Source: a virus. Taken from it: 35,448 nucleotides of DNA. The notes below the pieces were generated by a model, which saw only the letters and a list, made by a program, of their open reading frames with translations, had not been told where the DNA came from and did no database searches. A program made the translations under genes and the position numbers. Shown here in pieces: positions 3,335 through 34,992 of this stretch. The stretch is from positions 1 to 35,448 of IMG/VR virus record IMGVR_UViG_3300025115_000036; one strand, written 5' to 3'. Positions within the stretch are counted from its first letter, which is position 1. Every line of letters begins with the position of its first letter.

Positions 3335-3340
3335 TATTTA
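3335..3340 (-). promoter_or_regulatory. late-type promoter element (GATAAATA)
   Basis: GATAAATA on the minus strand (3342-3335) ends exactly 5 bases before the ATG at 3329. It faces the plus-strand copy at 3351, and together they form a near inverted repeat. Confidence 0.6.
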
Positions 3341-3350
3341 TCGAAATAGT

Positions 3351-3356
3351 TAAATA
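3351..3356 (+). promoter_or_regulatory. late-type promoter element (TTAAATA)
   Basis: TTAAATA followed by five bases and the ATG at 3362. It is divergent from the copy at 3335-3340, only 10 bases away. Confidence 0.6.
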
Positions 3357-3361
3357 ATTAT

Positions 3362-3688
3362 ATGATTAATACATCAAATCCTTATCAATCTGCCTTGATG
3401 CCAAAGGAAATAAACTATGATTTAGAAGTAAGAAACCAAGAAAGACATTATGCGGATGAAGATAAACTTACAAAAGCTCCTAAGATTTTAGTATTTCCAC
3501 TAGACCAATTAACACAGGTATTAAGCAACGCGTTCACTTCTCTTGCTCAAGTTTATAGCTTATTAGATCAAGCTAAACGGAACCCCATTATTAATAAGAA
3601 AGCCATTGAAATGTTACAACAAAAAATTGATAAAATTAATGAATTAATCATTAGTTTACCTCAAGAGCTTGACAATTTGGGAATTTAA
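3362..3688 (+). CDS. small helical protein, probable late or virion protein, unknown
   Basis: A 108-residue protein, mostly helical after residue 45: LDQLTQVLSNAFTSLAQVYSLL, then a basic turn, then KKAIEMLQQKIDKINELI, which suggests a helical hairpin or coiled coil. The N-terminal 40 residues are polar and probably extended. No catalytic motif, signal or membrane segment is visible. The late-type element in front of it suggests expression with the structural genes. The 3' end of this gene contains the TTGACA box (3669-3674) of the promoter for the next gene. Confidence 0.75.
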   Translation: MINTSNPYQSALMPKEINYDLEVRNQERHYADEDKLTKAPKILVFPLDQLTQVLSNAFTSLAQVYSLLDQAKRNPIINKKAIEMLQQKIDKINELIISLPQELDNLGI

Positions 3689-3696
3689 CTTATAAT
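3669..3696 (+). promoter_or_regulatory. consensus sigma70-type promoter, leaderless geometry
   Basis: A perfect TTGACA (3669-3674), a 16-base spacer and a perfect TATAAT (3691-3696). Seven bases later comes the GTG start at 3704, so the expected +1 falls on or next to the start codon. The -35 box lies inside the coding end of the preceding gene. Confidence 0.8.
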
Positions 3697-3703
3697 ATTA
3701 TTA

Positions 3704-4168
3704 GTGAAAAGCATATTTGTTGCAATATTTGTCCTTTTATTATTAAGTGCCGGAATAGCATATGGATTAAAGGAATTATTAACATTTTGGTCAGGATTTT
3801 GTTTAGCAGTAGTTACACAGTTTATTTTAATATATTTGTGGCTTACACATCAATATTTTAAATTGGAACGTTTAAATCGCAATAATTCTGAAGAAATTGA
3901 AAAAATATTAGAACAACAAACAGCATTAGTGGAATGCCCTTGTGGAAAATATACAGCAAAGGAAGTTCTTTTTGTTACAGGTGATAATATTTTTGATTGT
4001 CCTGAATGTAAAAATCAATTTCGTGTAAATATCGACTTAACACCAGTATTAATAACAAATCCAATAAGCGCAGAACGAATATTTTCTGAATTACAAGCAC
4101 AAGCCGAAGCTCAAAAAGAAAGGGAACTTTCAGATAATATACAAGATGAATCAGAATATAAAATTTAA
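3704..4168 (+). CDS. membrane-anchored zinc-ribbon protein, probable early gene
   Basis: A 154-residue protein starting with GTG. Two hydrophobic segments at about 4-20 and 29-47 form a membrane hairpin. A charged linker (51-72) follows, then a treble- or ribbon-type metal site with C78-x-C80 (CPCG) and C99-x-x-C102 (CPEC). The C-terminus is acidic and helical. The arrangement puts the metal site in the cytoplasm if both ends are cytosolic (inference). It follows the best sigma70 promoter in the window, so it is probably made soon after infection. A role in host takeover, membrane attachment of phage complexes or superinfection exclusion is possible, but I do not recognise a family. Confidence 0.78.
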   Translation: MKSIFVAIFVLLLLSAGIAYGLKELLTFWSGFCLAVVTQFILIYLWLTHQYFKLERLNRNNSEEIEKILEQQTALVECPCGKYTAKEVLFVTGDNIFDCPECKNQFRVNIDLTPVLITNPISAERIFSELQAQAEAQKERELSDNIQDESEYKI

Positions 4169-4391
4169 ACTTAAAAAAAATAAGCCATATAGTATGGATT
4201 TAGATGAATTTTCAAGATGGGCGTGTCTTGTTGAAGCAGTTGAAATTATATCTCAAAAAGCGCAAGAACTAAAGGTTTTAAATACAAACCAATGGATAAA
4301 ACCCCTCGCAATTCAGAAGTATATTGATGAAAGATTTCCATCTATGAGACACAATATGTGTATTGAGTATCATCATTTACATCATACCTAA
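4146..4391 (+). CDS. small hypothetical protein overlapping both neighbours
   Basis: An 81-residue frame that overlaps the previous gene by 23 bases and runs 15 bases into the end of the convergent glycosyltransferase gene. The N-terminus is very basic (KFKLKKNKPYS). The middle (DEFSRWACLVEAVEIISQKAQEL) is helical, and the end is His-rich. A second start at 4194 (MDLDEFSRW) would avoid the overlap and give 65 residues; I cannot decide between them. No function is recognised. Confidence 0.55.
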   Translation: MNQNIKFKLKKNKPYSMDLDEFSRWACLVEAVEIISQKAQELKVLNTNQWIKPLAIQKYIDERFPSMRHNMCIEYHHLHHT

Positions 4392-5213
4392 TTCTTGTTT
4401 TATTTCTTTTACACGTTTTGCTGGTAGTTTTCCTTTGAAATGTTTGAATACTTCATCTGTATCTATTTGTAATTCAGAAAACCCAATTAAGTAATTACGA
4501 AAACGGTCTTCTAAAAACAGTGGATATGGTGTGCCACTAGGGCGATTAAATCGATGCATCCATCTTAAAAATGGAAGACATAATGTTTTTCTACCCATTT
4601 TAATATATTTTTTGTGAATGTATCCTTCTTCTCCTCCAAATCCCCTAAATGCTGAATTAAAACCAAGCCAAGCGTGTCTTCTACATGCAAATAATCCCAT
4701 TCCTTGTGCGGGTATTTCGAAAGGTTCAGCATTTTCATCAAGACCTCTTTTATCAGTACTCCATGTACCCCACATATTATCATTCCAAATTAAGTCAAAA
4801 TGTGTGCTAATACTTTTTAAATCATCATATAAGAGGGGGCCTTGAAGCAGATTTCCTTTATCCAATCCAGCATCAAAGAATTCAATTAATTTTTTAATAG
4901 CGCCAGGAACAATTAATATGTGGCAATCAATACACATTACATAAGGTGTTGTTGCATATTCAAATACTTTGTTTTTTATTGTTGTTGATTTGTATTCTGT
5001 AAAAGGAACATATTCAACATTTTGTGATATTGATGCCCAATTAACAATATAATTTTTAAGAGCAACACCATGTGGGCTTGTCGGGTTATTATCAATAACA
5101 AGAAACTTTAAATCATTTGCACATTCGGAATGATACATGCGCAATGCTTGTAATGTAAAGAAAACACCATCATAATCATCATATGTTGGCATCCCAATCG
5201 TTAACTTTGCCAT
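4377..5213 (-). CDS. GT-A fold glycosyltransferase (GT2/GT27-like)
   Basis: A 278-residue protein that would transfer a sugar from a nucleotide-sugar donor, perhaps onto a phage structural protein or a host glycan. It opens with the family-2 strand LTIGMPTYDDYDG (4-16), followed by FLVIDNNPTS (37-46). The metal motif is D96-C-H98 in MCIDCHILI, a D-x-H rather than the common D-x-D. GFGGEEGY (191-198) and the later H220 in LRWMHRFNRP match, in order, the GGEN/E and C-terminal His ligands of polypeptide GalNAc-transferase-type enzymes. There is no signal peptide. It lies 10 bases downstream of the Thr/Ser-rich adhesin gene, a plausible acceptor (inference). Confidence 0.85.
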   Translation of the reverse strand: MAKLTIGMPTYDDYDGVFFTLQALRMYHSECANDLKFLVIDNNPTSPHGVALKNYIVNWASISQNVEYVPFTEYKSTTIKNKVFEYATTPYVMCIDCHILIVPGAIKKLIEFFDAGLDKGNLLQGPLLYDDLKSISTHFDLIWNDNMWGTWSTDKRGLDENAEPFEIPAQGMGLFACRRHAWLGFNSAFRGFGGEEGYIHKKYIKMGRKTLCLPFLRWMHRFNRPSGTPYPLFLEDRFRNYLIGFSELQIDTDEVFKHFKGKLPAKRVKEIKQELGMM

Positions 5214-5223
5214 GAAATAGATA

Positions 5224-7254
5224 CTAGAATTTCAATGTTTTGCAAGCAGAGGTATCACACGGATTGGGGGTTGTTGTTATTCCCTGTCGTGGTATTGGGG
5301 CTGGAGTTGTTGTTGGTGCAGGTGTTGTTGTTGGTGTCGTGGTTGTTATGTCAATTACAGGAGAAAATATATCTATTGGTCCTGGTGTAGTTCTTGGTGG
5401 TTGTGTTGTAACAGTAGTTGTTGTAGGACGAATTGCTGTATTTGAATGAAGTGTTGGTGCTGGTAAACAAGAGTCACAACTATTTGTATTATAAAATGTA
5501 ATTTTATTTAAACCTTGTGTTAATGCTGTTATAATTGCTTGTGTATTAGTATATGTTATTGTATCATTTGCATTTTCAATAGTGACTTTTTCAACATCAA
5601 TATTTGTTTCGGGGTATTCTACAACAATTAATAGTGTTCCTACAGTTCTTGTTTTTAATTCTCCTGTAATACTATCAAAATAATTGTTATCAATAATAAT
5701 TGATTCTTCAGGTTTCAAATAGAAATTAGTTCTATTATCAACCATAAAACGAGAACTACCCACTTGAGAAGTACTACTACTTGATTGTTGCTTTACAATT
5801 TGAATTATAGGCGGTCCTGTTGGTGGAGGGGTTGTTGTAGTAATAGTATCATTAGTAAAGAAAACAGAATTGGTTATTACATCTAATGTAACTTCAACAC
5901 TGTTTTGATTTAGTCGTCGCCAACCATTTTTATCAATGACTTCAAGAGATTTACAAACAATTGGCAAATTGGGGATTGTTTCTGTTACTTGTAATTTATC
6001 ACCCACTTGATATCCTGAAACATCGACAGCATGAAAATTGCTTGGTGTTAAATTAAAATTATCAATAACGTTTCCTGTTTTTGAATCAGTTACAGTATAT
6101 TGGAAAATTTCATTTTGTAAATCATTGTTTGGTTGTTTATATACAAATAATCTTAAGGAAGATAAAGGGGGGGAAGAAATCGTATTAAAATAAGTTACAG
6201 TATTAGTTATTTCCCCCAATTCGACATTAACAAATGGTGTTAATTCAGTACGAATTTCTCCGTTGTCAAAAACTTCTGCTTTTTCAAACCAAGCAGTATT
6301 TGTTACATTAATAAATTCTTTTACTTGAATGATATCCCCAATACTATAATTGGGTAAATTAATGAAGTATTGTTCCCCTTGTCTTAAATTAAATGCAGCA
6401 ATTGTATCAGTTGTTTCAGGGTCTGTTACAAGGTATTGGAAATATTGATCACCCAACTCTTCATTTTCTTCTTTTTGAACAACTAATCTTAAAGAAGACA
6501 AAGATGGAGATGAAAGTGTATTGGAAAATGTAACAGAATTTGTTAATGTACCCAATTCAATTGTTACTGTGTTTGTATTATTCTGTATACTTGCACCATT
6601 ACCATCATATACTGAAATTGTATCAACATAGAAACCCGCAATTGGGGTTTCTGTTATTTTCATATTTGTGCCTATTGGAAAATAAGCAGCATCAACAGCT
6701 CTTGATTCACCTTGTTTTAAATTAAAAATGTTAAGGGTGCGACTATTTGCAACATCTACAACACTAATTTCAAATTCTTGTTCTCCCAATTCTTCATTGG
6801 CAGCTTTTGTTACAATTAAACTAGGCGGCGCAGGAGTAGTGCTTGGTGTAGTGCTTGGTGTAGTGCTTGGTGTAGTGCTTGGTGTAGTGCTTGGTGTTTC
6901 AACAATAATTGTCCCATATAAAAACGATCCAAACTCCCAATTTAAAATTGGGAGTTTGGGTCCAAACTCCCAAGTAGGGAGTCTATCATCATCAATATAA
7001 AAAGGAAAAGCTATATATACACCAGGTGTATTATATGTATATTTCCCACTAAGGACGGTGCCTGATCCGTCAAAGTTACCAATCTCTAGTATTTCTCCGT
7101 CTAGTGTTTCTCCGTCCCCCAAATCAATATAAGCGGTGCCTGTCCCACCATAACCAGAAATAGTTAATGAAAAGGTTACAGTAACTGGGGCATCTGCTGT
7201 TACTACAGTAACGCCATTAATTTTGAAATCTGCAGAAATAATAGTAAATGCCAT
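5224..7254 (-). CDS. large multidomain tail adhesin with Thr/Pro linkers
   Basis: A 676-residue surface protein, probably a tail or baseplate decoration that binds host glycans or receptors. Residues 1-115 form a beta domain with a PKD-like LGDGET at 45-50. A (PSTT)n linker follows at 121-140. Three clearly related units of about 105 residues come next, starting near 148, 258 and 366; each begins like K-E-N-E-E-L-G-[ED]-Q and ends like ITNSVTFSNT. A fourth, more distant unit lies at about 475-590. The C-terminus is rich in TTTP and has two Cys pairs (CDSC and CDTSAC). The repeats resemble prealbumin- or SpaA-like folds of bacterial surface proteins (inference). The coding DNA holds a 12-bp tandem repeat and a 15-bp palindrome, both listed separately. 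No TAAATA element precedes it, so it is probably co-transcribed with the gene at 7257. Confidence 0.82.
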   Translation of the reverse strand: MAFTIISADFKINGVTVVTADAPVTVTFSLTISGYGGTGTAYIDLGDGETLDGEILEIGNFDGSGTVLSGKYTYNTPGVYIAFPFYIDDDRLPTWEFGPKLPILNWEFGSFLYGTIIVETPSTTPSTTPSTTPSTTPSTTPAPPSLIVTKAANEELGEQEFEISVVDVANSRTLNIFNLKQGESRAVDAAYFPIGTNMKITETPIAGFYVDTISVYDGNGASIQNNTNTVTIELGTLTNSVTFSNTLSSPSLSSLRLVVQKEENEELGDQYFQYLVTDPETTDTIAAFNLRQGEQYFINLPNYSIGDIIQVKEFINVTNTAWFEKAEVFDNGEIRTELTPFVNVELGEITNTVTYFNTISSPPLSSLRLFVYKQPNNDLQNEIFQYTVTDSKTGNVIDNFNLTPSNFHAVDVSGYQVGDKLQVTETIPNLPIVCKSLEVIDKNGWRRLNQNSVEVTLDVITNSVFFTNDTITTTTPPPTGPPIIQIVKQQSSSSTSQVGSSRFMVDNRTNFYLKPEESIIIDNNYFDSITGELKTRTVGTLLIVVEYPETNIDVEKVTIENANDTITYTNTQAIITALTQGLNKITFYNTNSCDSCLPAPTLHSNTAIRPTTTTVTTQPPRTTPGPIDIFSPVIDITTTTPTTTPAPTTTPAPIPRQGITTTPNPCDTSACKTLKF
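6836..6897 (-). repeat. tandem 12-bp repeat coding for a Ser-Thr-Thr-Pro linker
   Basis: The unit GCTTGGTGTAGT is repeated exactly four times (6841-6888), with a partial fifth copy to 6897 and a partial copy before it. On the coding strand each unit is one STTP step. The unit is a multiple of three, so copy-number change would alter linker length without a frameshift. Confidence 0.93.
6929..6973. repeat. 15-bp perfect palindrome plus third copy of its arm, inside a coding sequence
   Basis: The arm CCAAACTCCCAATTT (6929-6943) is followed after one base by its exact reverse complement (6945-6959). Two bases later the first 12 bases of the arm recur in direct orientation (6962-6973). A further 6-bp hairpin (6966-6971 with 6977-6982) follows. 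In the protein this gives WEFG at residues 95-98 and again at 106-109. Confidence 0.95.
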
Positions 7255-7256
7255 AA

Positions 7257-8129: not shown

Positions 8130-8134
8130 AAAAA

Positions 8135-8140
8135 TATTTA
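8135..8140 (-). promoter_or_regulatory. late-type promoter element (TTAAATA)
   Basis: TTAAATA on the minus strand, then TTTTT and the ATG at 8129 (spacer 5). The element contains the TAA stop codon of the preceding gene. Confidence 0.6.
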
Positions 8141-8314
8141 ATTGGTTGAGCTAAAGTAGTTAACCATTTCTTTTAGTTTGGAACACACTTCCAATAACTT
8201 GAAATAATTTTCATGATCAGCAGCTGAAACCTTTACTTTTTGTAAAGTATTATAAATGAAAATAATATCTTCTTCAGTTATGCCCTCAACGACAATTTCT
8301 TTTGGTGTGCTCAC
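8138..8314 (-). CDS. small helical protein between fibre genes
   Basis: A short protein of 58 residues if it starts at GTG 8314, one base after the TAA of the fibre gene upstream. A longer frame would need TTG at 8332 and a 17-base overlap. It has the pattern KEIVVEGITEEDIIFIYNTL, a strand followed by helices, then SAADHENYFKLLEVCSKLKEM, so it is a small alpha/beta or helical protein. It could be an assembly helper for the neighbouring fibres; no family is recognised. Confidence 0.6.
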   Translation of the reverse strand: MSTPKEIVVEGITEEDIIFIYNTLQKVKVSAADHENYFKLLEVCSKLKEMVNYFSSTN

Positions 8315-8315
8315 A

Positions 8316-9470: not shown

Positions 9471-9477
9471 TTAATTA

Positions 9478-9483
9478 TATTTA
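9478..9483 (-). promoter_or_regulatory. late-type promoter element (TTAAATA)
   Basis: TTAAATA on the minus strand with a 7-base spacer to the ATG at 9470. Confidence 0.5.
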
Positions 9484-9486
9484 AGA

Positions 9487-10593: not shown

Positions 10594-10602
10594 TGATAAA
10601 AT

Positions 10603-10608
10603 TATTTA
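10603..10608 (-). promoter_or_regulatory. late-type promoter element (CTAAATA), longest spacer
   Basis: CTAAATA on the minus strand with a 9-base spacer to the ATG at 10593, the longest of the set. If real, it would give a leader of about four bases. Confidence 0.4.
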
Positions 10609-10619
10609 GGGTTAAATCC

Positions 10620-14609: not shown

Positions 14610-14615
14610 TATTTA
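14610..14615 (-). promoter_or_regulatory. late-type promoter element (CATAAATA)
   Basis: CATAAATA on the minus strand with a 5-base spacer to the ATG at 14604. It contains the TAA stop of the gene at 14613-15119. Confidence 0.6.
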
Positions 14616-17786: not shown

Positions 17787-17792
17787 TATTTA
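17787..17792 (-). promoter_or_regulatory. late-type promoter element (CATAAATA)
   Basis: CATAAATA on the minus strand with a 6-base spacer to the ATG at 17780. It contains the TAA stop of the upstream gene. Confidence 0.58.
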
Positions 17793-22187: not shown

Positions 22188-22193
22188 TATTTA
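22188..22193 (-). promoter_or_regulatory. late-type promoter element (TTAAATA)
   Basis: TTAAATA on the minus strand with a 6-base spacer to the ATG at 22181. It starts the gp25-gp6 unit and is divergent from the element at 22214. Confidence 0.6.
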
Positions 22194-22213: not shown

Positions 22214-22219
22214 TAAATA
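22214..22219 (+). promoter_or_regulatory. late-type promoter element (GATAAATA)
   Basis: GATAAATA (22212-22219) with exactly 5 bases to the ATG at 22225. The spacing also supports that start over the TTG at 22195. Confidence 0.62.
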
Positions 22220-23186: not shown

Positions 23187-23192
23187 TAAATA
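23187..23192 (+). promoter_or_regulatory. late-type promoter element (CTAAATA)
   Basis: CTAAATA, then TTTTT and the ATG at 23198 (spacer 5). The spacing favours 23198 over the internal ATG at 23222. Confidence 0.6.
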
Positions 23193-23197
23193 TTTTT

Positions 23198-23593
23198 ATG
23201 AATACATTTCATAATAAAAGCATGAAAGATAATGATGCTCTTGCAAAAGCATATATTGCAATAACAGAAAATGTTAATGATTCAAGACAAGCAATCGAAC
23301 AAGAAGATATGCCTGATTGGGTTAAAAGAAAAGAACAGCGTGATTTAATAAACCAAAACCCAGAAATACCTGAATCAGAAACACCTGAAGATGCTGATCT
23401 TGAAGAGGAAGAAACAAATATTTCCGATACTACACGTTTAGAATGGTTGGCTAATCAAGGATTTTGCTGGCGCGATGCTGATAAAATATACCCTGAATGG
23501 GTAATACCCCCACGAACGGAATGGTTATATTCTAATGTATCAGAGTGGAGAGAAATGATTGACAGTGCAATGCAAGAAGATAAGGTATTTTAA
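23198..23593 (+). CDS. small protein with the shared N-terminal helix (DTxRLEWL type)
   Basis: A 131-residue protein. The tag-like part is KDNDALAKAYIAITEN (10-25), with I22-T23-E24 in the position expected for head-protease cleavage. A second ATG at 23222 would start exactly at this tag; I kept 23198 because of the promoter spacing. The middle (35-75) is acidic and low in complexity. The C-terminal half has SDTTRLEWLANQG and SEWREMIDSAMQ, the same ends as a small module frequent in phage proteins of unknown role. It is followed after 12 bases by the next member of the cluster. Confidence 0.75.
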   Translation: MNTFHNKSMKDNDALAKAYIAITENVNDSRQAIEQEDMPDWVKRKEQRDLINQNPEIPESETPEDADLEEEETNISDTTRLEWLANQGFCWRDADKIYPEWVIPPRTEWLYSNVSEWREMIDSAMQEDKVF

Positions 23594-23594
23594 T

Positions 23595-23600
23595 TAAATA
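23595..23600 (+). promoter_or_regulatory. late-type promoter element (TTAAATA)
   Basis: TTAAATA with a 5-base spacer (ATAAC) to the ATG at 23606. It begins immediately after the stop codon of the gene before. Confidence 0.6.
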
Positions 23601-23605
23601 ATAAC

Positions 23606-24277
23606 ATGAGCAATTATAAAAAAGATGCACAATTAATTTCTGAAAGATATTCAAAAATATACACAGAAGATCACGGACCAGATTTTCCTTTCGAAACATT
23701 GTCCGATGGGGAACTTATACGTTTAGCTAACCAATATGGAATTGAAGAAGAATTGGTTCAAGATGGAGAAGGCGGTGTTGCTAATCGAGATGAAGTAATT
23801 GCAAGATTGCGGGAGGTTGAAGCAGCAGATATCGCAGATATTAATGGTTTAAATCATGCAATGGAAGATGAAGAAACGTCTTTTGAACAAGAAGAAGGTT
23901 TTGACCCTGAAAGTACATCGTTAGAAGGTCTTCAAAAACGATATAATCGCGCCCATCGAATACTTTCTTTTGGAAAAGTAAAAAGAGCAAATACCTATGC
24001 AGCTCGGATGCCCGACGGCCGTTTTTTCTTTGTTGTCGCCGTCACAACACCAGGCAGTCAGGGTACAACATATGTTTTTGCTGAAGATGAAAATGGTAAT
24101 ACAGTTACCGGAGATATGCAAAGTGTTCTTCAAGATTTAGTTTATGATTATCATTTGGATAAAACAGTACCCGAAATAACTTCAAACACATCCACAGCAG
24201 AAGGGGAATCAATGGAGCCAGAATATGTAGGTGAAAATGAACCTCCAGCACCTGCAACAAGCAGATATATACAATAA
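23606..24277 (+). CDS. SAP-like domain protein with the shared N-terminal helix
   Basis: A 223-residue acidic protein. Residues 5-21 (KKDAQLISERYSKIYTE) match the tag pattern; I11-S12-E13 is an L/I-x-E match, and Y-T-E is at the usual end. Residues 31-72 read as a SAP-type helix-extended-loop-helix: LSDGELIRLANQYGI, then NRDEVIARLREVE, a fold that usually binds DNA. A second domain at about 110-175 is beta-rich (KRANTYAARMPDGRFFFVVAV). The last 40 residues are disordered and acidic. A DNA-binding internal head protein is a reasonable reading (inference). Its TAA overlaps the next ATG by one base. Confidence 0.78.
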   Translation: MSNYKKDAQLISERYSKIYTEDHGPDFPFETLSDGELIRLANQYGIEEELVQDGEGGVANRDEVIARLREVEAADIADINGLNHAMEDEETSFEQEEGFDPESTSLEGLQKRYNRAHRILSFGKVKRANTYAARMPDGRFFFVVAVTTPGSQGTTYVFAEDENGNTVTGDMQSVLQDLVYDYHLDKTVPEITSNTSTAEGESMEPEYVGENEPPAPATSRYIQ

Positions 24278-24305
24278 TGCAAAAAAAAGATCAAGAACTA
24301 TTAGC
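24277..24305 (+). repeat. direct repeat at the 5' end of two genes, copy 1
   Basis: This stretch, from the ATG to codon 10, matches 24726-24754 at 28 of 29 bases, including an unbroken 23 bases. It encodes MQKKDQELLA in both genes. Synonymous sites are conserved too, which points to recent duplication or recombination. Confidence 0.93.
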
Positions 24306-24720
24306 CAAAGCATATGAACAAATACTTTCTGAAAAATTAAATTGGAAAGGAGCACTGGCGGCTGGGCTTATGGGTGCAACAGCAATGGGTGCTGTAAGTT
24401 GTAATCGTGATCAACTTCCACAAAATACAAACAATTTTGTCCAACAAAGAATCGAAGCAATTCAAAAAAACATGCCTGAAACAAAAGGTGAATATTATAA
24501 AGGGGGCATAGAAATTCATGATTATTTAGAAATTCTTAGTGATCTTTCCCAGGACGAAATAAACAAAATAAATTCTATTGCAAGAACATTAGGACCAGAT
24601 AAAGCCGAAGCATGGTTAATTAATATTGCAAAACAAAAACATAATGAACAACAATCCCCGCAACAATCTTCACAATCAACCATAAAAAAAGGAACATATA
24701 TAGGATCGGATTGGGAATAA
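24277..24720 (+). CDS. small protein with the shared N-terminal helix and a lipoprotein-like segment
   Basis: A 147-residue protein. Its tag MQKKDQELLAKAYEQILSE ends with L17-S18-E19, the best head-protease match in the cluster. Directly after it come K20 and K24, a small-residue hydrophobic run (GALAAGLMGATAMGAV, 25-40) and A-V-S-C42. That looks like the charged region, hydrophobic core and lipobox of a lipoprotein signal, but buried behind the tag. The remainder is polar and helical (IEIHDYLEILSDLSQDEINK) with a Gln/Ser-rich tail. The alternative is a simple membrane-inserting segment. Function unknown. Confidence 0.75.
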   Translation: MQKKDQELLAKAYEQILSEKLNWKGALAAGLMGATAMGAVSCNRDQLPQNTNNFVQQRIEAIQKNMPETKGEYYKGGIEIHDYLEILSDLSQDEINKINSIARTLGPDKAEAWLINIAKQKHNEQQSPQQSSQSTIKKGTYIGSDWE

Positions 24721-26025: not shown

Positions 26026-26493
26026 TTATCTTCCTGTTGAACCAAATCCACCTTCGCCTCTAGTAGTTTCATCTACAGTATCTGTAAATTCGAAAGAAGC
26101 ATCATAATTTTTCTCAATTTTAATTTGTGCAATTCTATCTCCTTTTTTAACTTGATAACTACTTGCAGAAAAATTATAGAGTTTTACTCCCATGTCGCCC
26201 CTATAAAAATTGTCCAATTCCCCCGGATGAATTCTCAAATCATGTTTGAATGCCAATCCACTTCGACCTCTAAAAACTAATCCATATCCTGGGGTAATAT
26301 AAGCAATTTTTAACCCAACAGGGACAACTGCTTTGCCAATTTTAACTGGTGTTACAAAACCTCCACCCATAGCTTCTGAACCAGGAATTAATGTATCTCC
26401 ACATGCATAAATATCCCAACAATTATCTCCTTCGTGTGCTTGTGTTGGCAAAATAGCATCTGGATGTATTTTAATAAGTTTGATTTCTACCAT
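26026..26493 (-). CDS. dut: trimeric dUTPase
   Basis: A 155-residue dUTP diphosphatase that converts dUTP to dUMP, keeping uracil out of phage DNA and feeding dTMP synthesis. All five motifs are visible: I, GDNCWDIYA (22-30, D27); II, GRSGLAFKH (76-84); III, GELDNFYRGDMGV (91-103); IV, KKGDRIAQI (116-124); and V, the P-loop-like RGEGGFGSTG (145-154). Motif I has Cys-Trp where most enzymes have Gly-Tyr or Ala-Tyr, and motif III has Leu in place of Ile before Asp. Length is typical for trimeric enzymes. It is the first gene of the dut-clamp loader unit, with a sigma70-type promoter ending 6 bases before its ATG. Confidence 0.93.
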   Translation of the reverse strand: MVEIKLIKIHPDAILPTQAHEGDNCWDIYACGDTLIPGSEAMGGGFVTPVKIGKAVVPVGLKIAYITPGYGLVFRGRSGLAFKHDLRIHPGELDNFYRGDMGVKLYNFSASSYQVKKGDRIAQIKIEKNYDASFEFTDTVDETTRGEGGFGSTGR

Positions 26494-26499
26494 ATAACT

Positions 26500-26527
26500 A
26501 TTATAAAGGGCGTTCTTTTCTTTTCAA
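26500..26527 (-). promoter_or_regulatory. sigma70-type promoter of dut, leaderless geometry
   Basis: On the minus strand TTGAAA (26527-26522), 16 bases, then TATAAT (26505-26500), and the ATG of dut 6 bases further. The expected +1 falls on the A of the ATG. The -35 box abuts the divergent late octamer at 26528. Confidence 0.75.
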
Positions 26528-26535
26528 TATAAATA
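26528..26535 (+). promoter_or_regulatory. T4-type late promoter, full octamer TATAAATA
   Basis: The exact T4 late consensus TATAAATA, with a 5-base spacer to the ATG at 26541. With T4 spacing the first transcribed base would be the A of the start codon. Confidence 0.75.
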
Positions 26536-26540
26536 ATTCT

Positions 26541-27002
26541 ATGGAAGATAATTTCTTAGATAATATTGTGGATGATATTGTAAATCAATTACAAAACACA
26601 ACACAAGAAGTTAAGAAGCAATCTAGAGAACTTAATATTACACCTGATAATGTTGAACAGTTTCTTATTGATAATGCATCTAAATTAATTCAACGTGCGG
26701 TTGATGCTACGGAAGATATTGATGCAACAGATCCAGAGGCTGCAGAAGCTCTTGCAGAATTAATCAAAGCATCTAGTGCGGCTATTGATGCGTTGAATAA
26801 GTTGTATATTTCTCGTGAAAAAAACAGAACTTCCCAAAAGCTTAAGAAAATGGAAATAAAAGCAAAAGAAAGACTTGCTATTGGAGGGGATGAAAAAACC
26901 CGAATTACCTTTTCTCGTGAAGAAATTCTGAAACATCTTTTTGCACAACAAGAATCAACACTGCGGATTGATTCTCCTAAAAAAATTATTGATGTCGATT
27001 AA
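26541..27002 (+). CDS. possible small terminase subunit (T4 gp16-like)
   Basis: A 153-residue, wholly helical protein with an acidic N-terminus (MEDNFLDNIVDDIVNQL). The middle DPEAAEALAELIKASSAAIDALNKL (about 64-88) resembles in pattern the central coiled coil of T4-type small terminases, and it is followed by a basic helix (KNRTSQKLKKMEIKAKERL). Length is near gp16 (164). A small terminase would recognise or regulate DNA entering the packaging motor; the large subunit is not in this window, which weakens the call. Its TAA is shared through a TTAA with the convergent gene. A generic head or tail assembly protein is the alternative. Confidence 0.55.
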   Translation: MEDNFLDNIVDDIVNQLQNTTQEVKKQSRELNITPDNVEQFLIDNASKLIQRAVDATEDIDATDPEAAEALAELIKASSAAIDALNKLYISREKNRTSQKLKKMEIKAKERLAIGGDEKTRITFSREEILKHLFAQQESTLRIDSPKKIIDVD

Positions 27003-27979: not shown

Positions 27980-29510
27980 CGTCGCTTATATCTGTGTTTG
28001 GACCTGTATACGTTTTTACAGCTATTATATTATTACTATAAGATTCATAAAAGAAATCATGTTTTATAGTTGTAACAAACCACCTACCAATCATTTTTTT
28101 ATCCACTTCTGCTTTATCATTTTTAGGCTTTACAACATCGACAAAAACACCAGATTGTCTTTTTACATCACCAATGATTGGAAATTCAATTTGCATATTG
28201 TAAAATACAAACATGTTTATCATTTCTGCGGTTACAATATTTGCAGATTTTTCTGGATGAAATGGCAGGTTATATGTCTTAAAAATGTTTATTTTCTTTT
28301 GTTTATTTAATGGTAAAAATGGTTTTGGTTTACCACCTATACACGAAAAGACATCCACAAATTTTGTTTTCCATTGTTCCTTTAAATCTTTTAATCTTAT
28401 TTGTGTTGAAATGTGTTCACCAAGAACCGGGTCATATCCATGAACAATTGAATTTAAGAAAAATGTATTTGAATAGTCTGTCATCGGTGTACTAAATTTA
28501 CAGCCTTGAATAAACCCAGTAAACGTTGTAAATTCTGCATCTGGCGGCGGATTGTTTGGATTAGGTTCTATTTTATTTGTCATATCACCTAAAAGAAAGG
28601 CTTCTTTTGCTAATTCTTTATTCTTTTTATAAAAACTTTTAGACAAAGGTAATAAATTATATTTTTTTGCTATCCTATCATAATTCAAAATGCCTCTTAC
28701 TGGAAGCCCGTCATCAATATAATAATATATCTTAAGCAAATAATAAATTAAATCTACATATTTAAAAGAAACTGGCGGAATAATATACTCTGGATTTATA
28801 TCAATTTCGTGGTCTCCGTATTCAAATTCTCCAATAACCTCCTCACCAATCTTTTCTTTAATGATATCTTCTATAATTTTGCCAACCTTTCCTTTAAATT
28901 TGACACCTTGCGGAATTGATTCGTTTAATAGTTGATAGTTTTTATCAATTAATTGGTAACATTTTAAGTTATCCATTCGATTTCCTCTTTTTACAATTGG
29001 AACCTCGTCTTTAATAATAAATTCATATTCTAATTTTTGTTCATCTTTTGCATTATCAGGTTTTAATGCAAATCTAAATAAATCTCTCCCATCTCCACGT
29101 TGCAAATAATTACTTTCTGCATAGTCTAATGGATTAACCACCATTATCATTGCGTCCGTTAAAAAAGGATTAAAAATGTTATCTGTGAAACTAACACCTT
29201 TTACTGCAACACGGGAAAATCCAATATCTTGCCCATCAGCGTTCGTAACAGAATAGATGTATTTATATTGGACCTCATTAATTTGTGTTGGGGAATAATC
29301 GATTGCAGATGAAATATTGCCTACAGGTTTTCCACCCATAAGTGTTTTACCTTGCAAATTACTGGAACCGCCACCTGAACCTCCTCCACCAAACCCCATA
29401 TTTAAGTTTAATGGTATGAGTTCTCCTGTTACACTTGGTGATACAACGGAAAAAGCAGAAAGATTTGTGGAACTTAGTGAACTTAAAACTGTACTAATAG
29501 TGTCGGCCAT
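27969..29510 (-). CDS. baseplate hub protein (gp27/VgrG-type, tentative)
   Basis: A 513-residue protein. After a Ser-rich start there is a Gly-rich loop (GFGGGGSGGGSS, 39-50). The body alternates beta barrels: QYKYIYSVTNADGQDIGFSRVAVKGVSFTDN, and near the end QIEFPIIGDVKRQSGVFVDVV followed by GRWFVTTIKHDFFYESYSNN. Together these look like the tube-like domains of hub proteins such as gp27 and the N-terminal part of VgrG (inference). The central region contains helices with Tyr-rich faces (LIYYLLKIYYYIDDG). The neighbours, gp53-type upstream and tube-junction protein beyond, fit a hub. No lysozyme domain is visible. Confidence 0.65.
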   Translation of the reverse strand: MADTISTVLSSLSSTNLSAFSVVSPSVTGELIPLNLNMGFGGGGSGGGSSNLQGKTLMGGKPVGNISSAIDYSPTQINEVQYKYIYSVTNADGQDIGFSRVAVKGVSFTDNIFNPFLTDAMIMVVNPLDYAESNYLQRGDGRDLFRFALKPDNAKDEQKLEYEFIIKDEVPIVKRGNRMDNLKCYQLIDKNYQLLNESIPQGVKFKGKVGKIIEDIIKEKIGEEVIGEFEYGDHEIDINPEYIIPPVSFKYVDLIYYLLKIYYYIDDGLPVRGILNYDRIAKKYNLLPLSKSFYKKNKELAKEAFLLGDMTNKIEPNPNNPPPDAEFTTFTGFIQGCKFSTPMTDYSNTFFLNSIVHGYDPVLGEHISTQIRLKDLKEQWKTKFVDVFSCIGGKPKPFLPLNKQKKINIFKTYNLPFHPEKSANIVTAEMINMFVFYNMQIEFPIIGDVKRQSGVFVDVVKPKNDKAEVDKKMIGRWFVTTIKHDFFYESYSNNIIAVKTYTGPNTDISDDVD

Positions 29511-30671: not shown

Positions 30672-30677
30672 CAATAA

Positions 30678-30683
30678 TATTTA
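30678..30683 (-). promoter_or_regulatory. late-type promoter element (TTAAATA)
   Basis: TTAAATA on the minus strand with a 6-base spacer to the ATG at 30671, 2 bases after the TAG of the tape-measure gene. It supports 30671 as the start. Confidence 0.58.
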
Positions 30684-30685
30684 AG

Positions 30686-32728
30686 CTATGCCATTGAATA
30701 TGGGGATTCGGCATAAGATATCCTATCATTTGCGTTTATAGGTAATGTGGGAGAATCCATAGTATTCATTGGTATGTTAGCAACTTGTGTATTTGTTTGT
30801 GGTGTTGTACTTACTGGTTGTTTTGATATAGCTCCAACGAGTTGTTTATTACCATACACAATAGCATTGTAAATATTTTGTAACAATTTGACATTCATAA
30901 ATTGAAGTTTATTCAAATTATGTAATGCACTTAATGAAGAATCAGATGGTTTTGCTTGGCCCCCTTGTCTTCGAGCAGCCTCTTGTTTTTTTCTTGCTTC
31001 TTCTTGTCTTTTATATTTTTCAGCCCACATTTCTCTCTGTTTTACTGTACCAAAAGCAGCAGTAACAACAGAATCTTCTTCACTCCCTTTAATAAATGCC
31101 CGACGCATTTCTTCATTTTTATACTCAGTATTTATTGAAGCTATTTCAGCAAGAGCCGCTATTCTTCGGTCGCGCAATTCTTCATCAAAACCTGGCATTT
31201 TCCATGCGGGGGGTTCTGTTTGGTCTTTAAGAGCAAATGTAGGCATTATTGGTGTTTGCGGCTCTGTTTGGTCTTTAACAGCTGGCTTTAGCCATTCTGG
31301 CATTATTGGTGTTTGCGGTGCAACAGGAGGTGTTATTGATGTTGCTACCGCAACTTGTGCAACAGAAGGAGAAGGTGATGGAGAAGGAGTTGGTGAAGGT
31401 GTAGAGGTTGCTTTTTTTTCTGCTTCTTTGGCTACTGCGGGTTCTGATTTCTTTTGTTCTTCTTTTGGTGCGCCTTCTTTACTATCTTCATCAGATATTA
31501 TACCAAAAAATTCTAATGGTTTCCTTAATGCCCATGGTAAATCATTTAATTTCTTTTTAATCCAATCTTTTACTTTTTGTATCCAAGAAACCTTGGAAGG
31601 TTTCCCTTTTCCTTTTTCTTCTTTTTCATTAAACAAACTTAAAAGTGTTTCAAATCCATATACAAGAGCACCACCACCAGGTGCAAAAGTAATTAACCCA
31701 TTAATTAATTCTCTTAGACTATATAAAACATTACCAGATTTCAAAGCTTGCCATGCTTTGCCCCATCTTATAAAGGTGCCAATTATAGGCATATATGGTG
31801 CCGCTTTCATATATTTACGACCAATCCATGTTCCTATTTGTTTTAGAATATCTAATTTTGCTTTAGATTTTTCACTGCCTGTTTTACCAGCAGTTTTCAT
31901 ATCTAGCCAAGCATTTAATGCATCAAATCCTAATACTAGTGGAATAGCTACAACTGTACCACCTGGTATTAAATTCAATAATCCACTTAAACCCGCCAAA
32001 ATTTCAATCACCCCGCCTGTGACATCACCACTTTTAAATCTTGCAATGGCAAATCCAACAGATAATATACTTCCTATTAATGGGATTTTTTTAAGAATTT
32101 TTAATAGCGGGGTAAAGAATTTGCCCATTTTTAAAAGCATTCCACCAAGTTTTGTTCCTTTTAATAGCCCCATTGCCATTTTACCCGCGCCGCCAATCAT
32201 AGACATAAATCCTTTTGTTAAGCGCTGAAATAATAACATAGAAGCTTTTAACCCAACTTTTGATAGCATTTTCATACTACCTCTTAAAGCATTATCATTC
32301 ATCATTCCATATATTGCTGCTGTGATGCCTACAACAAGTAAACCAGTTGCAATTTTGAATAATGAAAGAGGTTTTTTGGTATCTATTTTTTCTTTGAATT
32401 TATCAATTGGAGATTGTTTTTTTGCTGTTGTTGTAGCTAATTGAGATATTTTTGTTAATTTGGTATCTTCTTTATATTTCTTTTGAACTTCAAAAAATTG
32501 TGTAAAGAGTATGTTCGCAATGTTTATTAAACGAGATTTTTCATTACTTTCGAGAGCTGGTTTAACTTTTTCCTTTTTTGATTTTTGGATAAAAGAAGAA
32601 CCTTCATTTGAAGGAATCACACCTTTAGGTACACCTTTATCAGCATTTTCAGGTGTATTATTATCAACAACCTTTATAAAACGACTAAATAAATCGTCTT
32701 TATTTCCATTATTTTCATCTCGTGGCAC
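30686..32728 (-). CDS. probable tape measure protein with duplicated hydrophobic module
   Basis: A 680-residue protein from a GTG. It has an N-terminal polar region (1-120), a membrane-type helix (LFKIATGLLVVGITAAIYGM, 123-142), Met/Gly/Lys-rich helices (150-215), and two related modules, at 215-276 (IPLIGS, KSGDVTGG, NLIPGG) and at 313-366 (MPIIGT, KSGNVLYS, FAPGGG). A Pro/Thr/Ser linker with TPSPTPSPSPS follows, then the repeat PQTPIMP-x-DQTEP and a helical C-terminus. This composition and the position near junction and hub genes fit a tape measure that may also insert into the host membrane. T4 gp29 has 590 residues. It could instead be another hub or pilot protein. Confidence 0.65.
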   Translation of the reverse strand: MPRDENNGNKDDLFSRFIKVVDNNTPENADKGVPKGVIPSNEGSSFIQKSKKEKVKPALESNEKSRLINIANILFTQFFEVQKKYKEDTKLTKISQLATTTAKKQSPIDKFKEKIDTKKPLSLFKIATGLLVVGITAAIYGMMNDNALRGSMKMLSKVGLKASMLLFQRLTKGFMSMIGGAGKMAMGLLKGTKLGGMLLKMGKFFTPLLKILKKIPLIGSILSVGFAIARFKSGDVTGGVIEILAGLSGLLNLIPGGTVVAIPLVLGFDALNAWLDMKTAGKTGSEKSKAKLDILKQIGTWIGRKYMKAAPYMPIIGTFIRWGKAWQALKSGNVLYSLRELINGLITFAPGGGALVYGFETLLSLFNEKEEKGKGKPSKVSWIQKVKDWIKKKLNDLPWALRKPLEFFGIISDEDSKEGAPKEEQKKSEPAVAKEAEKKATSTPSPTPSPSPSPSVAQVAVATSITPPVAPQTPIMPEWLKPAVKDQTEPQTPIMPTFALKDQTEPPAWKMPGFDEELRDRRIAALAEIASINTEYKNEEMRRAFIKGSEEDSVVTAAFGTVKQREMWAEKYKRQEEARKKQEAARRQGGQAKPSDSSLSALHNLNKLQFMNVKLLQNIYNAIVYGNKQLVGAISKQPVSTTPQTNTQVANIPMNTMDSPTLPINANDRISYAESPYSMA

Positions 32729-32733
32729 ATAAT

Positions 32734-32739
32734 TATTTA
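32734..32739 (-). promoter_or_regulatory. late-type promoter element (TTAAATA) before a GTG
   Basis: TTAAATA on the minus strand with a 5-base spacer to the GTG at 32728. The spacing picks out the GTG rather than an out-of-frame ATG two bases upstream. It overlaps the stop of the upstream gene. Confidence 0.6.
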
Positions 32740-33483
32740 ACTATTATGTGCGGTTTCAAAAAATGATGGGTCAATATCTATCGTATCATTTTCAACGGTG
32801 AGATATTTTAATTCAATTTCACGCAATTTTTCGATATAATTGATAACCTGTTTGTTTAATGAAAGGGGAAGTTTCTCAATAATCTTAATTTTTTGAGGTG
32901 TATTCAAGTCTTTAAAATTAAGTTTTTCGTTATCAAATTCAACAGAATCAATATATTTGATAATTTCATGAATATAAATAGCACTAACATTATCACTCAA
33001 TTTATTATCTTTTTGTTGCTCAACCAAATCTTCACATTTGGAAATAATTTTGCTTTCAGTATCTAATGTTGGAATACTACAATTAATTGTAATGCCATAT
33101 TCTTCAAATTTGGGTTCTGTTTCAACAGAATATACATCTACTTTAATAGCTTCCACTATTTCTTTCAAGTTATAAACTTTGTCGTCTTGTTTAAGTTCTG
33201 CACCTAATGCATTTATTCTTAATTGAATAACAATAGGAATCCTGTCCATAACAAAAAACGTTTCCTCAGGACCGTTTTCAACAATTATATCATTTAATAA
33301 TCTTGTAAAGCGAACAGCGCCAGTTGGCCCATCTGCTAAAGAAGCAATAAGATTTTTTTGTTGACCAAGACTTAGTGGTTTAAATTTCAAATTTTTCTTT
33401 AATCTGGGAACAAAAATGCTTACTTTATTAGTATTCAGCGCTTCAATTTTTTCGAAAAAGGCATTAATTGTTGGATTACTCAT
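32737..33483 (-). CDS. baseplate hub assembly protein, T4 gp26-like
   Basis: A 248-residue protein from ATG 33483, four bases after the preceding stop; the frame from 33516 would overlap it. The N-terminal VSIFVPRLKKNLKFKPLSLGQQKNLIASL (about 21-49) has the strand-strand-helix of the T4 baseplate-protein family (PF12322), in which a basic turn and F-x-P-L are kept. The remainder is helical, with KIKIIEKLPLSLNKQVINYI and a final acidic tail. Proteins of this group help the hub assemble and may not be in the finished particle. Confidence 0.68.
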   Translation of the reverse strand: MSNPTINAFFEKIEALNTNKVSIFVPRLKKNLKFKPLSLGQQKNLIASLADGPTGAVRFTRLLNDIIVENGPEETFFVMDRIPIVIQLRINALGAELKQDDKVYNLKEIVEAIKVDVYSVETEPKFEEYGITINCSIPTLDTESKIISKCEDLVEQQKDNKLSDNVSAIYIHEIIKYIDSVEFDNEKLNFKDLNTPQKIKIIEKLPLSLNKQVINYIEKLREIELKYLTVENDTIDIDPSFFETAHNS

Positions 33484-33487
33484 AACA

Positions 33488-34291
33488 TTAATTATTACTT
33501 GGGATTTGTAATGCACTATTTTCTTCTTTCATTTCATCTGTATATAAGCGACTATAAACTAATAATTCTTTAAAAGGCCTTTCAATTATGAAATTTGAAT
33601 TTAATTTTCGGGATAGTGTATAAATTAATTCGTAAAAATAATCTAATGAATATCCCGAATACATCCCTTTTAAAAATAAAAATGCTTGTGGGCTGAGAAA
33701 ATTAATTGTAAACGGGTTTCCACCTAAACTAGTAGTTGGATTAATTAAAACTGCTTCATATTTCATTAATTGTTCTTCCGCATATTTTACAATTACATTA
33801 TAAGCTTTCGCTGGTAATTGATTAATAATAGTTTCTCTTTCTGTATGTGTTATATCATTTAAATCAATAGTTTCCCCTGAAGATAATATTATTGATTGTA
33901 TTGTGTGTGTATAAATATCAGCAGGTTTTAAAATGAAAGAATGGGGCAAATCAAAAATATATGTAATACCATCATCCATTATTTTATATTTTGCATTAAT
34001 TTCACCTAAATTGAAAATGGATTTTAATAATAAATCTGCATTTATTGTTACATTATGTGTCTCTGTAACCAAATCTAGTGTATCACTGACACACAATTCA
34101 TATAATTTTATTAATGCATAACACTTTTCAATAACATTATATTTATAGGACTCTATAATAAAATTATCAAAAAAATCACAAACATATTCATTTGTGGAGA
34201 AATTACACAATTTTGTTAATTTTATTAAATTATTAAATGTAAATTCTCTTAAAACTAAATTGTTTTTATAAGGTGTTACTAGGCAATACAT
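33488..34291 (-). CDS. baseplate hub assembly chaperone-type protein (gp51/gp26-like)
   Basis: A 267-residue protein, mainly helical, with an N-terminal LVTPYKNNLVLREFTFNNLIKL and a middle DITHTERETIINQLPAKAYN. The C-terminal end DYFYELIYTLSRKLNSNFI, then FKELLVYSRLYTDEMK, is like the C-terminal end of T4-type hub assembly proteins such as gp51 (pattern recognition). It begins 26 bases inside the upstream gene and sits directly before the gp26-type gene, and the two probably act together. No slippery sequence was seen at either overlap. Confidence 0.6.
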   Translation of the reverse strand: MYCLVTPYKNNLVLREFTFNNLIKLTKLCNFSTNEYVCDFFDNFIIESYKYNVIEKCYALIKLYELCVSDTLDLVTETHNVTINADLLLKSIFNLGEINAKYKIMDDGITYIFDLPHSFILKPADIYTHTIQSIILSSGETIDLNDITHTERETIINQLPAKAYNVIVKYAEEQLMKYEAVLINPTTSLGGNPFTINFLSPQAFLFLKGMYSGYSLDYFYELIYTLSRKLNSNFIIERPFKELLVYSRLYTDEMKEENSALQIPSNN

Positions 34292-34979
34292 AAGAAGAAT
34301 TATTCATTTGTGGGATAGGTATTGGAGTTACTGGTGGATTTAAATAACTCGCGGAAAAGTTTGAGGCGCTTTTGCTGTTTTTCTCTGGTAATTGTTCATA
34401 ATTTTCACATAAAAATGAAACTGTTTTTACAATAAAATCTGTATTTGTGTAGTTTAAGGCTGCACCACCTTCGGTATTTACAGGAACACATTTATGAAAT
34501 CTATAACCTTTTCTAAAATTTCCATCATTACCATATTGTTTTATAGTAATAGTTGCTTTTAATTTTGTCAAAACTAAGCCTTCAATACCCACAGCAATAA
34601 TCCAAGGTCTAAATACAAAGTGTTCAATATCTTCATGAGTTTCAAGAAAATTAATTGTAAATAACCTACTGCTAAAATCTGCCCTATTATTCAATGCATA
34701 TCCTGGCAAAAACCCCCCTGAATTTTCAAAATTAACCGGAAATACAGTTAATGTTTCACTAGGAATGGTGATTTCTTGTGCTACTAATATATTTCCTTCA
34801 CCTATATAATCATCAATTTCTTTTACTAATCCCCACTTTTCTTTTGCATTTCCTACAGCACTAGCTATATCACTGCCACTTACACCAGAAATATCGACTG
34901 TCCAAAAAACAGGTAATGGTAAAAGTAATGCGTCGTCTTTTGAAAAACGATCAAGGAAGTTTTGTACATGGTTAGCCAT
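34266..34979 (-). CDS. tail tube-like or tube-junction protein (gp54-type, tentative)
   Basis: A 237-residue beta-rich protein. The section SRLFTINFLETHEDIEHFVFRPWIIAVG (about 105-132), then ATITIKQYGNDGNFRKGYRFHKCVP and IVKTVSFLCENYEQL, has the strand order of tail-tube-fold proteins. It is followed by a Pro/Asn/Ser-rich tail. The neighbouring upstream gene is the tail tube itself, so this may be a tube initiator or a second tube-type protein. It has its own late-type element. Confidence 0.6.
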   Translation of the reverse strand: MANHVQNFLDRFSKDDALLLPLPVFWTVDISGVSGSDIASAVGNAKEKWGLVKEIDDYIGEGNILVAQEITIPSETLTVFPVNFENSGGFLPGYALNNRADFSSRLFTINFLETHEDIEHFVFRPWIIAVGIEGLVLTKLKATITIKQYGNDGNFRKGYRFHKCVPVNTEGGAALNYTNTDFIVKTVSFLCENYEQLPEKNSKSASNFSASYLNPPVTPIPIPQMNNSSYVLPSNTL

Positions 34980-34986
34980 CTGTTAT

Positions 34987-34992
34987 TATTTA
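34987..34992 (-). promoter_or_regulatory. late-type promoter element (TTAAATA)
   Basis: TTAAATA on the minus strand with a 7-base spacer to the ATG at 34979, in the 30-base gap after the tube gene. Confidence 0.5.

Follow-up and report, generated by a model that had tools for sequence, protein, structure and literature searches.

A TAAATA box beside the start codon points to leaderless T4-type late transcription in an uncultured phage lineage

What is the role of a TAAATA hexamer that stands a few nucleotides (nt) before the start codons of many genes of the same virus? This question is raised by a fragment of the virus record IMGVR_UViG_3300025115_000036, 35,448 bases long with about 30% G+C, which was analysed as a whole and is called the window hereafter. 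An earlier note had proposed that these boxes form a late-promoter system producing leaderless mRNAs, i.e., mRNAs that begin at the start codon. TAAATA is also the core of the late promoter of phage T4, whose late transcription serves in textbooks as the example of gene expression coupled to replication and activated by a sliding clamp. We consider it highly probable, from the arrangement of the sequence, that the boxes are late promoters of the type recognised by the T4 sigma factor gp55, that they start leaderless mRNAs, and that the downstream genes are read by coupled translation. This leaderless layout is best read as a variant of the known T4 late promoter. T4 gene numbers (gp6, gp25, gp44, etc.) are used here as labels of the analysis, taken from PHROG matches and from a homologue search in the relatives.

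We re-examined the 15 hexamers that had been listed before, and every position and strand matched. The spacers, measured again from the start codons, were also those announced, i.e., 5 nt (n = 9), 6 nt (n = 3), 7 nt (n = 2) and 9 nt (n = 1), and the full T4 octamer TATAAATA is present in exactly one box out of 15 (26528-26535). The window contains 82 copies of TAAATA versus 108 expected from shuffles; the hexamer is thus not over-represented overall, and the signal is positional. When starts were called blindly at the first ATG, the box was found at a spacer of 4-9 in 14 of 39 window genes, for an expectation of 0.27 or, with another background, of 0.32 (p 9e-20); the 15th box gene was missed by this calling because it starts with GTG. 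Spacer 5 alone gives 8 genes versus 0.05 expected (p 8e-16). In the strictest control, column shuffles that keep the base composition at each position, the mean was 2.1 and the maximum 7 in 2000 shuffles, versus 14 observed. The claim that the motif lies far above chance is therefore borne out by both the per-position background and the column shuffles.

The box is conserved throughout the lineage. A set of 106 sequences, from which 38 were removed as redundant, left 67 relatives and the window; genes at most 40-100 nt from a contig end were skipped by the scripts. In the 67 relatives, 276 of 769 genes carry the box at a spacer of 4-9, versus 5.2 expected, with 134 at spacer 5, 111 at 6, 13 at 7, 14 at 8 and 4 at 9. 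This pooled count includes a distant clamp-loader match (G016/L104), not used as a group member, which shows no box enrichment (pattern matches 3 versus 4 in the control; 0/112 genes with a box at 4-9). At spacer 5, the long relatives G003 and G005 have the box in 31/250 and 58/333 genes, respectively, and the p-values of the box enrichment in these two are 1e-74 and 5e-100. Moreover, the same genes carry it from one orthologue to the next (52/53 for gene 22225, 44/45 for 15900, 33/34 for 26541, 32/34 for 12343 and 56/61 for gp25), although the orthologues compared are related sequences rather than independent trials, which lessens their weight in favour of our interpretation. Operon-internal genes give 0/54 (17790), 0/18 (26999), 0/25 (27969) and 6/62 (gp6), and none of 35 dUTPase orthologues has a late box. 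Footprint profiles were built from box-bearing rows only, so that the box is invariant there by construction and was not used as evidence; in these profiles, T at -13 and A at -12 are not conserved.

Two artefacts of gene calling were considered and rejected. An in-frame TAA within the box could inflate spacers 3, 6 and 9, not 5; the 111 cases at spacer 6 are far above those at spacer 3 (13) and spacer 9 (4). The gp44 orthologues with spacer 3 (13/45) were taken as carrying the stop codon of the upstream gene and were excluded as promoters. The boxes are not in general such stop codons either, because box genes seldom abut the upstream gene (0/14 in the window, 6/57 in G003, 8/89 in G005 and 1/21 in G012) and many of them face a divergent gene.

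In the window, several boxes stand back to back. The box at 3335..3340 (minus strand, spacer 5 to ATG 3329, a 169-amino-acid gene; box in 3/3 orthologues) is paired with that at 3351..3356 (plus strand, spacer 5 to ATG 3362, a 108-amino-acid gene; 1/1 orthologue), their divergent start codons being 32 base pairs (bp) apart. Likewise, the box of the gp25-like baseplate wedge gene at 22188..22193 (minus, spacer 6 to ATG 22181) has as its divergent partner the box at 22214..22219 (plus, spacer 5 to ATG 22225), with 43 bp between the start codons; 51 of the 52 orthologous boxes of this partner are at spacer 5. The octamer-bearing box at 26528..26535 (plus, hexamer at 26530) has a spacer of 5 to ATG 26541. 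On the minus strand, well-conserved boxes lie at 14610..14615 (spacer 5 to ATG 14604; 32/34 orthologues) and 17787..17792 (spacer 6 to ATG 17780; 44/45), and others at 8135..8140 (spacer 5 to ATG 8129; 2/2), 9478..9483 (spacer 7 to ATG 9470; 2/3), 30678..30683 (spacer 6 to ATG 30671; 13/25) and 34987..34992 (spacer 7 to ATG 34979, a gene with a weak tail-tube match; 2/5). The weakest case is that at 10603..10608 (minus, spacer 9 to ATG 10593; 1/3). No orthologue was found for the genes behind the plus-strand boxes at 23187..23192 (spacer 5 to ATG 23198) and 23595..23600 (spacer 5 to ATG 23606).

The boxes mark the first genes of transcription units and a particular class of genes. Among window genes with neither late box nor TATAAT, 17 of 22 abut or overlap the upstream gene, versus 0/14 box genes, in agreement with the proposal that downstream genes are read by coupling. 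The contrast is similar but weaker in the relatives (6/57 late genes in G003 and 8/89 in G005, versus 76/160 and 90/231 genes of neither class). Of 43 divergent junctions of at most 45 bp, 23 have both boxes, the tightest of them with 24 bp between start codons; the window and its near-copy G001 are both in this count, as are several orthologues of a single junction. The earlier description of the box genes as virion-type holds for some of them (gp25-like, tail- and baseplate-like genes), and several others have no known function; the lateness of box genes is deduced from homology. Its statement that replication genes are devoid of the box was confirmed in the window, where the clamp loader, the dUTPase, the exonuclease (rnh-like) and the primase have none at 4-9, and also in G003 and G005 together, where the box precedes 15/28 virion or packaging homologues versus 0/24 replication, recombination or nucleotide homologues (Fisher p 9e-6, an optimistic value as both records share orthologues; phoH was left unclassified and the duplicated nrdA of G003 counted once). 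phoH carries the box in both long relatives. Finally, TTGACA at 5/6 matches or better was found upstream of 0/14 box genes in the window, 4/57 in G003, 5/84 in G005, 4/21 in G012 and 10/259 in the other relatives. The late box thus has no conserved -35 element, as expected of a T4-type late promoter.

These genes also lack the usual translation signal. Shine-Dalgarno (SD)-like words precede 1/39 window genes versus 2/39 in a control stretch, as had been noticed before, and the counts in the relatives compared with their controls are 17 versus 21 (G003), 23 versus 15 (G005) and 2 versus 3 (G012). The same test was applied to comparison phages, taken as stretches of about 50 kilobases (kb) each, except HTVC008M, a Pelagibacter phage taken as a whole genome. 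It gave 32 versus 3 in the T4 late stretch, 32 versus 4 in Melnitz, 36 versus 1 in Mosig, a weak 11 versus 3 in P-SSM2, and 82 of 175 genes versus 17 in HTVC008M. A de novo word search recovered SD-like words in T4 and HTVC008M; such words did not rank among the top ones in G003, G005 or G012. No stop interrupts the first codons in any of the rows tested, and in four genes out of five variation is greatest at the third codon position, which is tied in the fifth; because these codons behave as coding sequence, the called start codons are probably real.

Where would transcription start? In T4, TATAAATA spans -13 to -6 (PMC1524935), and the late box lies about one helical turn upstream of the start, with no conservation at -35 (PMC2988020). 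A spacer of 5 nt consequently places +1 on the A of the ATG. A sign that is in part independent of this points the same way: at spacer 5, the base at -1 is a pyrimidine in 88/100 genes versus 270/491 box-less genes (p 1e-10). A pyrimidine-purine (Y-R) step is found 5-6 nt after the box in 15/23 genes at spacer 7 and 7/11 at spacer 8; the controls give 91/491 and 143/491 for box-less genes at the same distances and 141/575 for boxes far from genes. At spacers 7-8, the step keeps its distance from the box and does not track the ATG, which suggests leaders of 0-3 nt. From the geometry and the Y-R step together, we infer that the 5' end of the mRNA is located at the start codon or within a few nt of it.

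The machinery that could read such promoters was searched with PHROG profiles over 18 records, most of them fragments. Of the two T4 late factors to which the earlier note had pointed, gp55 (phrog_234) was found in 10 of the 18 records, among them each of the four that measure at least 177 kb, with E-values down to 3e-27 (7e-25 in G003); the Pfam sigma region 2 match is weak, below the cut-off. The phrog_234 search did not find gp55 in the window fragment itself. The gp45 sliding clamp (phrog_223) is present in 3/18 records and was not found in G005. In G005, gp55 (103528-105030, i.e., L121:3528-5030) is split by an insert resembling an intein (Pfam Intein_splicing at E 7e-6, under the cut-off) that begins with Cys and ends with VYITGN before a Ser; if this insert is an intein, the late sigma factor of G005 would need protein splicing.

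Several observations weigh against this interpretation. The other late factor, gp33 (phrog_254), was found in 0/18 records at E-values up to 1, although it is a small divergent protein that a hidden Markov model may miss; a search for its C-terminal motif and the examination of two window open reading frames (ORFs) found nothing either. By sequence, no clear T4 clamp epitope is visible at the C-terminus of the gp55 of the group: T4 gp55 ends with SLDFLYEAND and that of HTVC008M with KLEYFM, versus, e.g., PPDEENSFED and PPDEENDY in the group. One of the seven relatives compared ends with DEEDDLYNQ, and the gp55 of P-SSM2 also has no obvious epitope match. The activation step may hence differ from that of T4. 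In G003 and G005, the end of gp43 has stayed T4-like (LFDLFSK and LDELFS, respectively). As the clamp epitope is described as retained in gp55 homologues (PMC2988020), its loss would be notable if confirmed.

The position of the start is also open to objections. There is no single Y-R step at spacer 6 (10/34 at nt 6, 18/34 at nt 7), nor one at spacer 9 (3/10 and 4/10). Positions -3 and -4 are pyrimidine-rich after the box as well (61/100 and 76/100), and in canonical leadered T4-type promoters only 22/61 have the Y-R step at nt 6; the initiator argument is for these reasons supporting, not decisive. Spacers 7-9, about a quarter of the boxes (48/182 in the pooled set), need leaders of 2-4 nt or a shifted +1. 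Some expected boxes are missing, since gp23, gp6, gp15 and gp17 of G003 have none at the first ATG. Conversely, the window box at 32734..32739 (minus, spacer 5 to GTG 32728) is found in 0/5 orthologues and is not conserved.

Finally, boxes also occur farther upstream. At the T4 position (15-34 nt) there are 7 in G003 and 14 in G005, close to the per-position background of about 5 and 10. The other relatives have 61 boxes at 16-30 nt from the first ATG, versus 12 at 31-53, an excess that goes against our model. Of these 61 boxes, 31 sit at exactly 25 nt, mainly before gp6 in the rows printed, and 11 also have a near box. At the gp25/gp6 junction (e.g., L010 near 9980), the TAAATA about 25 nt before gp6 falls inside the end of gp25, in a conserved LNNNGY-type stretch. 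It may be coding sequence or a second, leadered gp6 promoter, the two being indistinguishable, and for the remainder a few leadered promoters may exist in the lineage.

In the mechanism that we propose, the host RNA polymerase, carrying the phage sigma factor gp55, would recognise TAAATA as the core element of a late promoter of T4 type. The placement of the box would put +1 on the first base of the start codon or 1-3 nt before it. The first gene of a late unit would then be translated from a leaderless mRNA through its 5'-terminal AUG, without SD pairing, and the following genes would be reached through stop/start overlaps. By this way, one short block (box, 5 nt, ATG) would set the start of both transcription and translation, and two such blocks would fit back to back in 24-34 bp.

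Other explanations have to be weighed. That the pattern arises from chance or A+T-richness has next to no probability: the window is only about 30% G+C and TAAATA is a common word there, but the shuffles never exceeded 7 of 39 genes against the 14 observed, the p-values in G003 and G005 are vanishingly small, and the same genes carry the box in up to 61 orthologues. The earlier note had named an equal frequency of the motif at random positions as evidence against its proposal, and shuffles, orthologues and background all show the opposite. It is unlikely that TAAATA is instead a translation signal carried by the mRNA, such as an A/U-rich enhancer for ribosomes that work independently of SD, with the promoters elsewhere. 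Such a role would suit the background level of SD words and the tight distance to the ATG, and hosts whose ribosomes ignore SD exist, namely Bacteroidia (PMC9976891). However, the hexamer is identical to the T4 late core; most coupled genes do without it, and so do replication genes, which need translation equally. In addition, 21 of 234 genes of G003, with five replication homologues among those listed, have TATAAT at 6-8 nt instead, in some cases with TTGA[AC] farther upstream. This is a sigma-70 layout, and its shift of about one base is what two promoters both placing +1 at the start codon would be expected to show.

Ordinary leadered T4 late promoters, with start codons mis-called and the true starts 15-30 nt downstream, would reproduce the layout known in T4, P-SSM2, Syn9, Melnitz and Mosig. 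We hold this to be very improbable, given the stop-free first codons with their codon-like variation, the absence of SD enrichment in the lineage (as judged on upstream stretches only), the frequency of second codons such as GCA and AAT, and the offsets between orthologues, which in the rows shown are for the most part 0 or 3 nt. Lastly, the late promoters could be real and start-adjacent yet read by another sigma factor or by a phage polymerase rather than by gp55. The failure to find gp33, the unclear clamp epitope and the lack of gp55 in the window fragment would be in line with this, while the gp55 homologues of the relatives and the identity of the box with the core of the T4 gp55 site go against it; we regard it as quite improbable. 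Late promoters of the gp55 type, opening leaderless mRNAs, thus remain our preferred explanation.

Candidate early promoters were also observed. Sigma-70 promoters with a 6-nt spacer put +1 on the A of the ATG, one base more than the late box. In G003, TATAAT peaks at spacers 6-8 (21/234 genes), before genes that include uvsX, gp43, gp32, gp55 and gp61, and TTGA[AC] lies 16-17 bp upstream of TAWAAT in 9 cases, so that early units look leaderless in this relative. In G012, TAAAAT is at spacer 6 in 5/40 box-less genes. A de novo word search found no clear early motif in G005; in the other relatives, TATAAT is no commoner at spacers 5 and 6 (13, 14) than at spacers 2, 10 and 11 (14, 13, 14), and a -35 element at 5/6 matches accompanies TATAAT in 0/32. 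Early leaderlessness is therefore not established as general for the lineage, its cases being those of G003, G012 and two or three window genes. In the window, the candidate of the dUTPase gene (minus strand, -10 at 26500..26505, -35 at 26522-26527) reads TTGAAA-16-TATAAT-6-ATG with the start at 26493. This early promoter and the divergent late promoter are contained in the same 47 bp (26493-26541), where the early -35 abuts the late TATAAATA box; the junction is a possible early/late switch. A second candidate -10, TATAAT at 881..886 (plus), is at spacer 5 from ATG 892 of the rnh-like exonuclease, and TTGACA-16-TATAAT at 3669..3696 (plus), at spacer 7 from a putative GTG start at 3704, is a single case.

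G003 contains, moreover, a composite element, (A)GGAAC-N5-TAWAAT, whose AGGAAC form occurs in 23 copies versus 0 and 2 for control patterns. Of 24 GGAAC forms, 8 finish 6-9 nt upstream of a called start, and for 9 there is no such start within 60 nt; examples lie upstream of 23453-24382, 28761-28982 and 76400-76666. We regard the element as a candidate for a middle promoter in which an activator box would lie directly upstream of the -10. The sigma-70-like promoter type is unlike the promoters of Bacteroidota, and its presence in G003 speaks weakly against a host of this phylum. Host searches gave no answer: an alignment of gp6 against genome_contigs found no relative, and a back-translated tag pattern of transfer-messenger RNA (tmRNA) gave 0 matches.

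To which phages does the window belong? Its PHROG matches include baseplate wedge and hub proteins, the clamp loader, the dUTPase, the exonuclease and the primase, and the window scan detected no transfer RNA (tRNA) and no Rfam match. Among the matches listed against phage records, identities reach at most 37.7% for its clamp loader and 30.7% for its gp6, and, in G003, about 33% for the polymerase and 34.1% for the capsid protein. Closer relatives are abundant in IMG/VR (gp6, the best 80 of 145 loci; gp44, 25 loci). G003 and/or G005 encode the T4-type core genes gp6, 13, 15, 17, 18, 19, 20, 21, 23, 25, 32, 41, 43-47, 55 and 61, uvsW and uvsX. Judged by its proteins, the lineage is a far, uncultured member of the T4 superfamily. 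A family 2 glycosyltransferase gene (Pfam E 5e-7) closes the structural block of the window at 4377-5213. In G003, a one-piece tmRNA gene (L106:15777-16193, minus strand; Rfam RF00023, E 4e-53) encodes the tag AANKVVDFVLPQAEPQFALAA and is accompanied by tRNA-Leu, -Met and -Arg genes in L107. The 197-kb record G003:C1 has an nrdA-like match at both ends (3999-5663 and 193362-195026), which suggests end redundancy or a repeat.

If the proposed late promoters operate as described, the box is fused to the start codon, so that promoter and translation start would change together in evolution, as a 14-bp unit; divergent genes could then be packed very tightly, and start codons in such genomes could be called from the promoter. 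A broader scenario, which we put forward tentatively and hold at somewhat less than even, is that the whole lineage gave up leaders and SD, its early, middle-like and late units all starting at the ATG, that the clamp tether of gp55 was reduced or lost, and that HTVC008M has gone partway by convergence. If true, the promoter itself selects the start codon, and a shift in the logic of gene expression has been repeatable in T4-type phages.

The comparison with known systems delimits what is particular to this lineage. As in T4 late promoters, the core is TAAATA, -35 matches are few, an A+T-rich stretch follows the box, late virion genes are concerned, and gp55 is present in relatives and gp45 in three of them. 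In contrast to T4, the box is mainly 5-7 nt before the ATG instead of 15-34, the SD-bearing leader is absent, T(-13) and A(-12) are weak, gp33 was not detected and gp55 has no clear clamp epitope. In the stretches of T4, Syn9, P-SSM2, C48C1, Melnitz and Mosig, the box lies mainly 15-35 nt upstream of the ATG, with single exceptions such as one spacer-5 box in each of Melnitz and Mosig; the cyanophages P-SSM2 and Syn9 have the same box, but mainly 15-34 nt upstream. The stretches of KVP40 and Cr30 are non-structural and say little on box position, and RM378 shows no box pattern. For the cyanophage S-PM2, the late consensus is given as NATAAATA (PMC2984593), and the Aeh1 late promoter CTAAATA keeps TAAATA with a position -12 that is not T4-like, as in our lineage (PMC1524935).

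HTVC008M shares the layout in part. Eleven of its genes have TAAATA exactly 5 nt before the ATG (p 6e-13), with annotations that include DNA end protector, head closure, tail tube cap and baseplate wedge, and its divergent DNA-end-protector and head-closure genes have two late boxes within 26 bp (L142:18916-18943), an architecture seen in the lineage too. It differs in that some of the 11 genes are not virion genes (e.g., 2OG-Fe oxygenase, CsgF), that a box also stands 18-36 nt upstream of 10 genes, in 8 of which an SD-like word is present, and that SD is widely used. An unrooted tree of eight taxa, built on six proteins of head, tail and packaging, unites G003 with G005 on a single long branch (support 100) and places HTVC008M beside Melnitz and Mosig. 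Because it stands apart from the lineage, the leaderless layout probably arose at least twice, independently in HTVC008M, on a thin sampling. For pelagimyophages, PMC7029224 reports that the prediction of middle and late promoters was unsuccessful, and a start-adjacent box may help to explain this failure, at least for HTVC008M. In this cultured phage-host pair, the strength of leaderless translation becomes testable on head and tail genes, which need a high output.

The classic leaderless mRNA is that of lambda cI, transcribed from its maintenance promoter. More widely, phage transcripts are described as often leaderless (PMC5312081). We found no description of leaderless T4-type late promoters in titles and the beginnings of abstracts, a scope that leaves aside subscription papers and preprints, and in PMC9004378 the word "leaderless" appears a single time, within the title of a reference. 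A start at the AUG is a trait shared with other leaderless phage mRNAs; in this lineage, it would extend to an entire class of late promoters.

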